Shown: positions 16,845 to 19,806 of the stretch, in pieces
Layout of the letters: each line of letters starts with the position of its first letter
Numbering within the stretch: the first letter of the stretch is position 1
Source of the DNA: Methylotenera sp.
Lineage (GTDB): Bacteria; Pseudomonadota; Gammaproteobacteria; Burkholderiales; Methylophilaceae
NCBI RefSeq assembly: GCF_029945705.1
Contig: NZ_JAQSDC010000001.1
Coordinates: 1 to 60,560, forward strand
Length of the DNA stretch: 60,560 bases
Reading direction: 5' to 3'
The notes under the pieces: generated by a model
What the model was told of the DNA's origin: nothing
Seen by the model: only the letters and a program-made list of their open reading frames with translations
Database searches by the model: none
Made by a program: the position numbers and the translations under genes

Positions 16845-18050
16845 TTAGCTTTTTATAGGGTCAGGGTGCGTCTTTGCATAAGATTGACGTGTTGATGGAC
16901 TAAGAATAATTTCCTCATAGAATTTAATCATTCGTTGCGCTTGCAATGTTGCGGTCCATTTATCTAATGCATAGCTTTTCGCACGTTTACCTAGTTCAAA
17001 TCGATGCTCTGGGTTAAGCAGTAACTGGTCTACTCTATCTGCAAATTTAGCGGTGTCATCTGGCGCAATCAACGCGCCTTTTCCTTCAATTAAAATAGAA
17101 GCTGTACCAAGTTCAGCAATCGCGACTACTGGCGTGGCTTGCGCCATGGCTTCTAGTAGCACCAAGCCTTGAGTTTCACTTTTAGAAGCGAACACAAAAA
17201 TATCTGCGGATTCATAGCAAGCGTTAAGTTCTTTGTTGCGGTCTAAATAACCGATAAATTGAACGTTTTTTTCTATGCCTAATGTTTTGGCAAGTTTATG
17301 TAAACTCGCCTCGGCTGGGCCTTCACCAGTGACTACCAATAAAACATCGGGTCGTTTCTCTATGAGTAGTTTAGTCATCTCTAATAAGAAATCGATATTT
17401 TTTTCAAATGCAACACGGCCAACATACAACAACATAGGTCTATCGATAGCAATACCATATTTCAATCGAAAAGCTTGGCCATCTGCATCGGTAAAACTAC
17501 TCTCCTGTAAACCTGTTGGAATTACTTCAGATAGCACGTTAACGCCATATTTACGTAATACATCTAACATGGGGTTTGATGGCGCGACAATTGCATCTAC
17601 TGCATTACATTGGCGTTTGGAAATCATTCTGGCAATACCACGTGCAATGGATTTCGGCATCCACGGTAAGTAGTGATGCAAATAATCTTCAAAGAAGGTG
17701 TGGTAAGTTTCGATACATGGAATATTCAGTTGAGCTGCAAGCTTAAGCCCTAAGTAATGCGCCACAAAGGGTGTATGCACGTGGATAATGTCATACTTTT
17801 CTTTTTCTAGCTCTGGCAGTAATTGTAGTGCCTCGCCGTATTTCATGAGTTTATCTTCTGGGTCAAAATAGATGCTACGTGCTGGAATACGCTTAATCCA
17901 AGCTTCATCTTCTGTGGCCACATCATAATCTGGTGCGATTAAATGTACTTCATGACCTAAGTTCTGCATTTGCAAAACAAATGTTCTTATAGAAGTGGAT
18001 ACGCCATTAATCCTTGGAAAATAGACATCTGAGATAAATAATATTTTCAT
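16845..18050 (-). CDS. GT4 glycosyltransferase, probably acting on diacylglycerol
   Basis: This 401-residue GT-B glycosyltransferase of family 4 has the N-terminal ISDVYFPRINGVSTS acceptor-side loop, a YVGRVAFEKN donor-side motif (about 209-218) and the EX7E signature E292-x7-E300. The N-terminal pattern resembles lipid glycosyltransferases (diacylglycerol and phosphatidylinositol mannosyl/glucosyltransferases), which supports a membrane lipid acceptor. It is divergent from the zinc phospholipase C and carries its own Pho-box-like pair at 18122-18139. The sugar and the lipid acceptor are inferred, not shown. Confidence 0.85.
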   Translation of the reverse strand: MKILFISDVYFPRINGVSTSIRTFVLQMQNLGHEVHLIAPDYDVATEDEAWIKRIPARSIYFDPEDKLMKYGEALQLLPELEKEKYDIIHVHTPFVAHYLGLKLAAQLNIPCIETYHTFFEDYLHHYLPWMPKSIARGIARMISKRQCNAVDAIVAPSNPMLDVLRKYGVNVLSEVIPTGLQESSFTDADGQAFRLKYGIAIDRPMLLYVGRVAFEKNIDFLLEMTKLLIEKRPDVLLVVTGEGPAEASLHKLAKTLGIEKNVQFIGYLDRNKELNACYESADIFVFASKSETQGLVLLEAMAQATPVVAIAELGTASILIEGKGALIAPDDTAKFADRVDQLLLNPEHRFELGKRAKSYALDKWTATLQAQRMIKFYEEIILSPSTRQSYAKTHPDPIKS

Positions 18051-18121
18051 AGTTTAGAGTTCATTCAATTAAATCAAGTGGTTAGTTAGCCCGTTGCTAA
18101 ACTGAACGATAGCGAGTCAAT

Positions 18122-18139
18122 ATGACGATTTAATGAATT
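18122..18139 (-). promoter_or_regulatory. Pho-box-like repeat pair upstream of the glycosyltransferase
   Basis: On the minus strand two units, AATTCAT (18139-18133) and TCGTCAT (18128-18122), are spaced at exactly 11 bp and lie about 72-89 bp before the glycosyltransferase start. The PhoB consensus is CTGTCAT repeated every 11 bp with AT-rich 4-bp spacers. The match is partial (4 and 5 of 7), so this alone would be weak; it gains weight from the boxes at the two neighbouring genes. Confidence 0.35.
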
Positions 18140-18168
18140 TATTTTAACGTCTTACTAAATCTTTGGAA

Positions 18169-18197
18169 TTTTCACTAAATAGTCATATAACTGTCAC
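18169..18197 (+). promoter_or_regulatory. Pho box upstream of zinc phospholipase C
   Basis: Three units TTTTCAC, TAGTCAT and CTGTCAC are spaced at exactly 11 bp (starts at 18169, 18180, 18191) with AT-rich spacers TAAA and ATAA, oriented towards the phospholipase gene 35 bp downstream. The last two units with their spacer match the PhoB consensus CTGTCAT-N4-CTGTCAY at 11 of 14 repeat positions, and CATATAACTGTCAC is the classic form. PhoB control is inference; no phoB is in the window. Confidence 0.62.
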
Positions 18198-18231
18198 TAA
18201 TTCTTAATCAGCGCATGGCAAATTACACGCT

Positions 18232-19092
18232 ATGCGAATACCAAAATTCATTCAATATTATTGTTGGTGGCTGCCATGTTGCCTATATTCAGTGGATGCG
18301 AATGCTTGGGGGCTGGTGACGCATCTCTATTTTGCGCAGTCACTTCTTTGGGCAATGCCATTGTTAGACCCACGCTTACAACGCGCAATTAGAAACTTTC
18401 CTGAGCTTGTGATGGCTGGCGCTTGCTTGCCTGATTTGGCGATTGTGAGTCCACACTATCGCAAGACTCATCTTTGGGAGAATGGGCATCAACTGATGCA
18501 ATCCGCGCGTACAGAAGAAGAAACGGCGATTGCCATTGGCTATATCAGCCACTTATATATTGATGTGATCGCACATAATCATTTTGTTCCAGCGCATGAG
18601 GCGATGTGGCATAAAAATGAGGTATTCACGCACATTGCTTCTGAATGGGCGATGGATGGTCATTTGGCGCCATTGTTAGATACATCAGTAACACAGCTAC
18701 TAAGTAGACACCAAGCCGTGATTGCTGCATTTATTTCTATTCAATTTGAGTGTCCTGTAGATGTCACCACTAAGGCTTTAAAACGTCTGGCATTCTGGGA
18801 TGGTGTGTTACGCGCAGTCAAATTGCCAACGCTGATTTATAAAGCTGTTCAAGTGGTTGATAAGCGTGTGTTTAAGCACTTTGTTTACTATGTGGCTAAA
18901 ACGCAAGTGGCTGTGGCGGATATTGGTGAGGTGCTCAATGGCAAGAATCCATTACTAGAGCCCGAACTGAAAAATCTTAGTGTGGATCAGCTAGATGTTT
19001 GGCGTGAGCAATGTTTAAAGCACTTGTATATTGTGCACTCAACACCGATTCAATATTATCAAAAGACTTTGGTGGAAGATGCTTTTCACTAA
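18232..19092 (+). CDS. exported zinc-dependent phospholipase C
   Basis: This 286-residue protein belongs to the zinc-dependent phospholipase C family. Residues 1-25 are a signal peptide ending ANA, so the mature N-terminus is W26, matching the zinc-binding Trp1 of the Bacillus cereus enzyme. The remaining zinc ligands fit by spacing: H31, D68, probably H80, H107-x3-D111-x5-H117 and H134-x3-E138. It is predicted to release diacylglycerol and a phospho-headgroup from phospholipids. It has a Pho box directly upstream and sits between a glycosyltransferase and a PAP2 phosphatase, which suggests membrane remodelling rather than virulence. Substrate is inferred from family. Confidence 0.82.
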   Translation: MRIPKFIQYYCWWLPCCLYSVDANAWGLVTHLYFAQSLLWAMPLLDPRLQRAIRNFPELVMAGACLPDLAIVSPHYRKTHLWENGHQLMQSARTEEETAIAIGYISHLYIDVIAHNHFVPAHEAMWHKNEVFTHIASEWAMDGHLAPLLDTSVTQLLSRHQAVIAAFISIQFECPVDVTTKALKRLAFWDGVLRAVKLPTLIYKAVQVVDKRVFKHFVYYVAKTQVAVADIGEVLNGKNPLLEPELKNLSVDQLDVWREQCLKHLYIVHSTPIQYYQKTLVEDAFH

Positions 19093-19180
19093 AATACTAG
19101 CTTACTAGAGTAGTGCGTCACCTAAGTATCAAATGGCTAGTCCATTAAATGGCTAGACTAGCAGACGACTAAACTAGCAA
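19093..19180. repeat. cluster of CTAG sites with a short direct repeat
   Basis: Between the convergent phospholipase and PAP2 genes, AAATGGCTAG occurs twice (19131-19140 and 19147-19156) and the tetranucleotide CTAG occurs seven times in about 90 bp. It may be a degenerate terminator region or slipped repeats; no function is evident. Confidence 0.4.
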
Positions 19181-19708
19181 AAATGACAATCTAGCAATCG
19201 TCGCACCAATCACTGCGCCAGCAATCACGTCGCTAGGGTAATGCAAACCTAATACTACGCGGGATAAGCCCACCAGCACTGCAAACGGCACAACAATGAT
19301 GGCGATTTGTGGGTAGTAGCCAATTGCCACTAAGCTAAACACAACTGCGTGCAAAGTATGACCTGATGGAAAGCTGAATTTATCAAGCGGCGTGCCAGTC
19401 AGCCAAATGTCCTGATGCACTTCGTATGGACGAGGTCTTAAGGTTTTACCTTTTAACCATTTGTAGAGTAATGTGCCGCTTAAGCCTGCCAATGTCATAT
19501 GTATCACTGGCGTTAAACCTTCAGCGCCATGCAATATCAAAATGCCGACCATTAAGGCGTACCAGAATATGCCATCGCCTAGTCTGCTGGCTATTCTAAA
19601 AAAATCACGTATCAACCTGTATTGGCTAGTGTGGTTGACCGCAATACATAGAAAACTATCGAGTTGGTGCATACGACTGATATAAAAACGCATCTTGAGT
19701 GACATCAT
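19169..19708 (-). CDS. PAP2 family lipid phosphatase
   Basis: This 179-residue membrane phosphatase has all three PAP2 signatures: K86-x6-R93-P94, PSGH at 114-117, and S149-R150-x5-H156-x3-D160, with several membrane helices. Family members dephosphorylate phosphatidic acid, phosphatidylglycerophosphate or undecaprenyl pyrophosphate. Its position facing the phospholipase C and the presence of Pho-like repeats upstream suggest that it makes diacylglycerol from phosphatidic acid, but an undecaprenyl-PP role cannot be excluded. Confidence 0.88.
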   Translation of the reverse strand: MMSLKMRFYISRMHQLDSFLCIAVNHTSQYRLIRDFFRIASRLGDGIFWYALMVGILILHGAEGLTPVIHMTLAGLSGTLLYKWLKGKTLRPRPYEVHQDIWLTGTPLDKFSFPSGHTLHAVVFSLVAIGYYPQIAIIVVPFAVLVGLSRVVLGLHYPSDVIAGAVIGATIARLSFLLV

Positions 19709-19766
19709 AACCCCCTGTTTCTATTATTTTTTCCTTTTAGTATGAAGGTTAGAATGTCATTGAAAT

Positions 19767-19806
19767 GTGAAGGATTGATGAATGCAATATGAAAGTTTGT
19801 TGAATG
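19767..19806 (-). promoter_or_regulatory. Pho-box-like repeats upstream of PAP2 gene
   Basis: Reading the minus strand towards the PAP2 gene, four 7-bp units occur at an exact 11-bp period: CATTCAA, CTTTCAT, CATTCAT and CCTTCAC (plus-strand starts 19800, 19789, 19778, 19767). The TTCA core and AT-rich spacers CAAA, ATTG and CAAT resemble a degenerate Pho box array. Strength is moderate; the best unit matches the consensus at 6 of 7 positions. Confidence 0.45.

Follow-up and report, generated by a model that had tools for sequence, protein, structure and literature searches.

The window, a stretch of 60,560 nucleotides from a Methylotenera genome (contig NZ_JAQSDC010000001.1, positions 1 to 60,560), contains three neighboring lipid genes, coding for a GT4 glycosyltransferase, a zinc-dependent phospholipase C (PLC), and a PAP2-family phosphatase. 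They probably form a PhoB-controlled module for membrane-lipid remodelling, in which an exported zinc PLC replaces the phospholipase PlcP. This reading draws on the genes themselves, their conserved promoter boxes and undamaged catalytic positions, the lack of PlcP in the same genome, the mutual exclusivity of PLC and PlcP among genomes, and the partners that the two enzymes share. The published phosphate-sparing route consists of the metallophosphoesterase PlcP and the GT4 glycosyltransferase Agt (PMC4796936, PMC8528852, PMC9239053, PMC8231724), with PlcP supplying diacylglycerol (PMC4796936). The original prediction placed the three lipid genes at this locus, and the Pfam assignments agree with it.

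Promoter repeats and gene neighborhood

Each of the three genes is preceded, on its own strand, by TCAT or TCAC (TCAY) units at an exact spacing of 11 bp, as had been predicted, with only two exact units in the case of the GT4. These repeats resemble the Pho box of Escherichia coli. The triple pattern TCAYN7TCAYN7TCAY has eight exact matches in the 2.93-Mb genome, against two for the reversed pattern. Five of the eight are upstream of PLC, PAP2, phoB, ppk (polyphosphate kinase), and olsB. One element is hence common to the gene of the phosphate regulator, to the synthesis of polyphosphate, to a second pathway for phosphate-free lipids, and to the module. The other three are found within rpoB, within gyrA, and where two minus-strand genes meet that, judged by eye, are prepilin-like (the one scanned has no NCBIfam match). 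The assignment of phoB is based on TIGR02154 (347 bits for a cut-off of 296), and an apparent histidine kinase gene, recognized by eye, follows it.

The repeats are conserved among relatives. Thirty Methylotenera loci, including the one of the window, provided 27 promoter regions for PLC, 27 for the GT4, and 20 for PAP2 (23 PAP2 matches minus one without a start and two without upstream sequence). A TCAY pair at 11 bp is present in 27/27 GT4 regions, 20/20 PAP2 regions, and 23/27 PLC regions. The total number of pairs is 43 for PLC, 27 for GT4, and 40 for PAP2, for means of 0.91, 0.46, and 1.03 and maxima of 4, 5, and 4 in 200 shuffles. Pairs spaced by 10 or 12 bp number 0–2 per promoter set, and the coding sequences of the same loci contain five pairs in 25,227 bases (PLC), one in 30,150 (GT4), and none in 11,796 (PAP2). 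Genome-wide pattern counts, shuffles, spacing controls, and footprints in relatives together lead us to reject a chance origin of the repeats, which stand above the genome background as expected. Promoters of Pho-box type, a trait of the PlcP–Agt lipid remodelling systems, are thus present at all three genes of the module, and PhoB would control these genes through the boxes.

In relatives, too, the three genes occur together, both in Methylotenera and in wider sets of loci. Among 61 genomes searched for PLC (37 from the genus, including the one analyzed here), 33 have the gene, 31 of these within the genus (31/37). In the 30 Methylotenera PLC loci, the GT4 adjoins in 27 and PAP2 also in 23, some contigs ending too early. 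Two peptide patterns, scanned against named genomes, yielded 66 PLC loci, taken with up to 6 kb on each side, of which 62 have a GT4, 53 PAP2, and 26 the diacylglycerol kinase gene dgkA; a TCAY pair lies within 300 bp upstream of PLC in 60 (no shuffle control was applied to this count). The loci whose titles name a family or genus are mostly from Methylophilaceae (Methylotenera, Methylovorus, Methylobacillus, Pseudomethylobacillus, Candidatus Methylopumilus, and Novimethylophilus). Among the other titles, many read "uncultured proteobacterium" or "Betaproteobacteria bacterium" and one "Sulfuritalea sp."

In an even sample of 399 Burkholderiales genomes from 159 genera, the PLC profile matches 57 genomes from 26 genera. 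For PLC loci that are not from Methylophilaceae, 25 in number, a GT4 occurs within 1.5 kb in 18 and PAP2 in 17; a TCAY pair precedes PLC in 19 of the 25, again counted without shuffles. The glycosyltransferases of these loci belong to two subtypes, the one found in the window (GTa, two loci) and another (GTb, 17 loci), with one locus having both. GTb is present somewhere in the genome in 49 of the 50 PLC genomes outside Methylophilaceae.

Complementary distribution of PLC and PlcP

The original prediction also had the zinc PLC take over the place of PlcP, and this claim is supported both within the genome and across the order. The genome has no PF12850 match and no match to a PlcP-like query at 1e-20, and its only PF00149 matches above the cut-off are ApaH and LpxH, as identified by NCBIfam; a third match, at 17 bits, is below it. 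A metallophosphoesterase close to olsBA was considered as a candidate PlcP and rejected, as it is ApaH, the other one being LpxH. In other lineages, the PlcP-like proteins encoded next to GTb exceed the cut-offs of both PF12850 and PF00149. The query is the putative PlcP of one such locus (L169), so classified from its motifs, from its length, and from the position of its homologs before an Agt-like GT4 in 16/30 loci. PlcP is a calcineurin-like metallophosphoesterase.

With an E-value threshold of 1e-20, a PlcP-like protein is found in 196 of the 399 Burkholderiales genomes. These include no PLC genome out of 57, for an expected overlap of 28.0. Six genera (g52, g69, g79, g81, g90, and g101) include both species with PLC and species with PlcP; hence, the exclusivity does not reflect only old family structure. 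Among 13 sampled Methylophilaceae, seven have PLC and six, all with small genomes (1.3–1.4 Mb), have PlcP. GTb, counted at a threshold of 1e-75, is present in 51/57 PLC genomes, in 76/196 PlcP genomes, and in 11/146 genomes with neither. Put differently, of the 138 genomes with GTb, 127 have exactly one of PLC and PlcP, none has both, and 11 have neither.

The gene neighborhoods point to displacement in place. In one genus of Methylophilaceae (g28; L204, L205), the GT4 (58%–59%) and PAP2 (59%–60%) adjoin PlcP, and TCAY pairs precede PAP2 and PlcP, at a site that the zinc PLC occupies elsewhere in the family; the four PlcP frames of this genus are intact, the stop marks being their natural ends. 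In g81 (L207) the two GT4 subtypes flank PlcP, in g69 (L211) PlcP is beside both, and in g90 (L214) PLC occurs together with GTb, PAP2, and the GT4 of the window type. In 30 PlcP loci, an Agt-like GT4 (32%–35% identity to GTb) is directly downstream in 16, GTa and PAP2 are beside PlcP in four, and a TCAY pair lies within 400 bp upstream in 20, this last count having no shuffle control. PAP2 had been predicted to take the place of PlcP along with PLC, which does not hold, since PAP2 adjoins GT4s in loci without PLC and also adjoins PlcP itself. Judging by these neighborhoods, PAP2 is a partner common to PLC and PlcP loci, not a replacement of PlcP.

One might see the PLC as an exoenzyme that scavenges phosphate from external phospholipids and has no role on the cell's own membrane, the GT4 and PAP2 being just other members of the Pho regulon. 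The predicted export of the protein and the existence of PLC genes without GT4 and PAP2 nearby would fit such a role, and Pho boxes would suit any phosphate-scavenging enzyme. However, a scavenger has no need to adjoin GT4, PAP2, and dgkA, and it gives no reason for excluding PlcP, which acts in membrane remodelling (overlap 0/57), so that we regard this explanation as unlikely.

Several observations nevertheless weigh against a remodelling module based on PLC. The six Methylotenera genomes without PLC (among 37) also lack PlcP, and 146 of the 399 Burkholderiales genomes lack both. One Methylotenera genome (G027) has PLC plus a PlcP-like gene, the sole case in 52 genomes of the genus. The hypergeometric probability of the zero overlap (log10 p = −18.7) ignores phylogeny. 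Seven of the 25 PLC loci outside Methylophilaceae have no glycosyltransferase within 1.5 kb, and 3 of 15 wider regions have no visible partner (L206 and L210 with PLC, L213 with PlcP). Within the genus, the box pair is absent from 4 of the 27 PLC regions, and three loci (L031, L033, L037) have an intact PLC with neither GT4 nor PAP2 within 1.5 kb; decay of PLC in these three was considered and rejected, the apparent stop marks being the natural ends of the genes. The GT4 of the window is only 27%–28% identical to PlcP-adjacent Agt-like glycosyltransferases and 23%–24% identical to GTb, and because of these low values its acceptor is uncertain. Finally, a Foldseek search with the structural model of the PLC gave no match under an E-value of 0.9, the top entry being a nuclease.

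The enzymes of the module

The features of the locus are listed in Table 1. The genome has 60 contigs, and the module is flanked by a transporter of the SDF family on one side and an M48 peptidase on the other. The GT4 and PLC genes are divergent, with a common intergenic region of 181 bp.

Table 1. Positions of the genes and promoter elements of the module in the window
Feature	Position	Strand	Remarks
GT4 glycosyltransferase (subtype GTa), proposed diacylglycerol glycosyltransferase	16845-18050	-	PF13439/PF00534
Pho-box-like TCAT-N7-TCAT, GT4 promoter, TCATTAAATCGTCAT	18122-18136	-	two exact units only
Pho-box-like triple TCAY repeat, PLC promoter, TCACTAAATAGTCATATAACTGTCAC	18172-18197	+	three units
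Predicted signal peptide of PLC, 25 aa, ending in DANA before W	18232-18306	+	
Zinc-dependent phospholipase C, predicted periplasmic/exported	18232-19092	+	PF00882; mature part 18307-19089
PAP2-family lipid phosphatase	19169-19708	-	PF01569, 79.9 bits
Pho-box-like triple TCAY repeat, PAP2 promoter, TCATATTGCATTCATCAATCCTTCAC	19767-19792	-	three units

The best NCBIfam match of the GT4 is an alpha-monoglucosyldiacylglycerol synthase, along the full length (141.5 bits, below the cut-off of 400), and the protein has the E-x7-E motif ETQGLVLLE at residue 292. GTa and GTb, which are 24% identical, swap or coexist beside the same PLC and PAP2 (L104, L126/L216), and together they might perhaps catalyze two steps or add two sugars. 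A class-wide search with GTb matched 274 genomes, and the best 30 loci (L144–L173) were inspected with flanks of 1.5 kb. PAP2 adjoins GTb in 24 of these 30, a PlcP-like gene is nearby in four (L150, L152, L161, and L169), with the order GTb-PlcP-PAP2 on a single strand in L150 and L169, and PLC was found within 1.5 kb of GTb in none. The GTb–PAP2 pair is thus widespread in the class, mostly without PlcP or PLC within this distance.

The three-part catalytic motif of PAP2 is intact, with K-x6-RP (KGKTLRPRP), PSGH, and SR-x5-H-x3-D (SRVVLGLHYPSD). Its best match in PDB is LpxE (6ebu, E = 2.6e-11), which could mean that the module spares the phosphate of lipid A or lipopolysaccharide, PAP2 dephosphorylating as LpxE does, the GT4 substituting a sugar, and PLC acting separately. 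Yet the best NCBIfam match of the GT4 is a diacylglycerol glucosyltransferase, albeit below cut-off, and PAP2 and the GT4s adjoin PlcP, the published supplier of diacylglycerol (PMC4796936), which makes a role in lipid A very improbable.

In five loci of Methylophilaceae outside Methylotenera (L083, L086, L088, L092, and L102; PF01219 with E = 3e-35 in L083), the GT4 and PLC are separated by a small gene for diacylglycerol kinase, and in another locus of the family (L104) such a gene is beside PLC; a seventh, more distant locus (L105) has none. These kinase neighbors, with their link to diacylglycerol, speak for the remodelling module. No dgkA was found within 1.5 kb of PLC in the 30 Methylotenera loci, and the genome analyzed here has two dgkA genes elsewhere.

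The PLC matches PF00882 with 71 bits, for a gathering score of 26.8. A script searching for A[WF]G, applied to 96 loci, kept 93 homologs after dropping three fragments, and all 93 have a basic and hydrophobic N-terminal stretch before A-W-G. The enzyme is accordingly predicted to be exported to the periplasm with Trp1 as mature N-terminus. Positions 1, 6, 43, 55, 82, 86, 90 (or 92), 109, and 113 are invariant in 70/70 sequences (W1, H, D, H, H, D, H, H, and E) and are the putative zinc ligands. Their roles are assigned by analogy with Bacillus cereus PLC.

An AlphaFold2 model built from the 70 mature sequences has a mean confidence score (pLDDT) of 92.3; a previous one from 26 close homologs was poor (65.6) and was set aside. 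The model is predicted to have the fold of the PLC/P1-nuclease superfamily and is closest to B. cereus PLC, with PLCs ranking above nucleases by only about 1–2 Z units. Neither phmmer nor a profile search found a useful sequence relative of the protein in PDB. Hence, the description of the enzyme as B. cereus-type finds support in its predicted fold and zinc ligands, and none in PDB sequence relatives. Cleavage of phospholipids by this enzyme would agree with its family. As an alternative, a secreted enzyme of the same superfamily that frees phosphate from nucleic acids, be it a nuclease or a phosphodiesterase, is very doubtful given the PF00882 assignment, the lipid-gene neighborhood, the ranking of the model (by that small difference), and the last ligand, Glu113, as in PLCs, where P1 nuclease has Asp.

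Proposed mechanism and known systems

We infer the regulation and each catalytic step of the remodelling module as follows. When phosphate is exhausted, PhoB would bind the three boxes. The zinc PLC, matured to Trp1, would then remove the head groups of phospholipids at the periplasmic face and leave diacylglycerol, to which the GT4 would add a sugar on the cytoplasmic side, yielding a phosphate-free glycolipid. PAP2 may add diacylglycerol from phosphatidate or treat another lipid phosphate, which is the weakest step of the scheme; PAP2 and, elsewhere, DgkA might tune the balance between phosphatidate and diacylglycerol. In parallel, olsBA, under the same box, would make ornithine lipids. On balance, and less firmly than for the module itself, we favor a more general view: the Sec-exported zinc PLC, with its periplasmic diacylglycerol, would be a second and topologically opposite entry to phosphate-sparing glycolipids, and PLC and PlcP would have replaced each other repeatedly, even within a genus, around a constant GT4 and PAP2, and often dgkA. 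With PLC predicted to be periplasmic, one has to ask how diacylglycerol reaches the glycosyltransferase and why PLC and PlcP avoid each other.

The PlcP–Agt remodelling systems (Sinorhizobium, Phaeobacter, SAR11, Pseudomonas aeruginosa, and Methylosinus) share with the module the Pho-box-like promoters, a phospholipase C with a nearby GT4, and, at their loci, PAP2 and glycosyltransferase partners. They differ in that the phospholipase of the module is a predicted exported PF00882 zinc enzyme, from another family than the metallophosphoesterase PlcP, and in that its GT4 has only the 27%–28% identity to PlcP-adjacent Agt-like glycosyltransferases given above. With the phosphatidylcholine-hydrolyzing PLC of B. 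cereus and its PLC/P1-nuclease superfamily, the enzyme of the window has in common the predicted fold, the positions of the zinc ligands, and the mature Trp1 N-terminus; as differences, it has no meaningful sequence match to a PDB chain and is set among lipid-synthesis genes. No PF00882 phospholipase was found in the literature on bacterial lipid remodelling under phosphate starvation, a literature covered through titles and openings of abstracts, with subscription journals mostly outside.

The OlsBA ornithine-lipid pathway, which acts under phosphate limitation, has the same 11-bp boxes as the module, and makes a different phosphate-free lipid from a separate locus. The olsB-like gene (G000:C54:31048-31845; L007, L043) sits under a triple TCAY box. 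Its product is an OlsB-like acyltransferase with 180.6 bits (below the cut-off of 320), and is followed by an OlsA-like acyltransferase with 119.1 bits for a partial stretch (below the cut-off of 300). Among 52 genomes of the genus, 47 have olsB, and a TCAY pair is upstream of it in 30/30 loci examined, including that of the genome analyzed here; by spacing, there are 42 pairs at 11 bp, six at 10, and one at 12, counted without shuffles. Ornithine lipids are therefore probably phosphate-regulated in Methylotenera.

If the zinc PLC does the job of PlcP, surveys that rely on plcP overlook entire groups, including most of the Methylotenera examined. Transcription of plcP has been put forward to indicate phosphorus limitation among proteobacterial methanotrophs, and PlcP transcripts assigned to Methylotenera are reported to make up 3% of the PlcP homologs in Lake Washington sediment (PMC9239053). 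The latter is in mild tension with the presence of PlcP in only 1/52 genomes of the genus. A phage-like copy, or other genera filed as Methylotenera, could be behind these transcripts.

The single PlcP-like gene of the genus (G027, at L219:1480-2247 and L220:9518-10285) lies in a run of small genes on the same strand, and of five neighbors scanned, two have a strong and one a weak match to phage families of unknown function. By tblastn, PlcP-like genes are present in 5 of 50,697 phage records, including Pelagibacter phage Mosig EXVC030M (41.9%) and Synechococcus phage S-SRM01 (34.6%, two records), where they are annotated as UDP-2,3-diacylglucosamine hydrolase or diphosphatase. Genes of lipid remodelling may be carried by phages.

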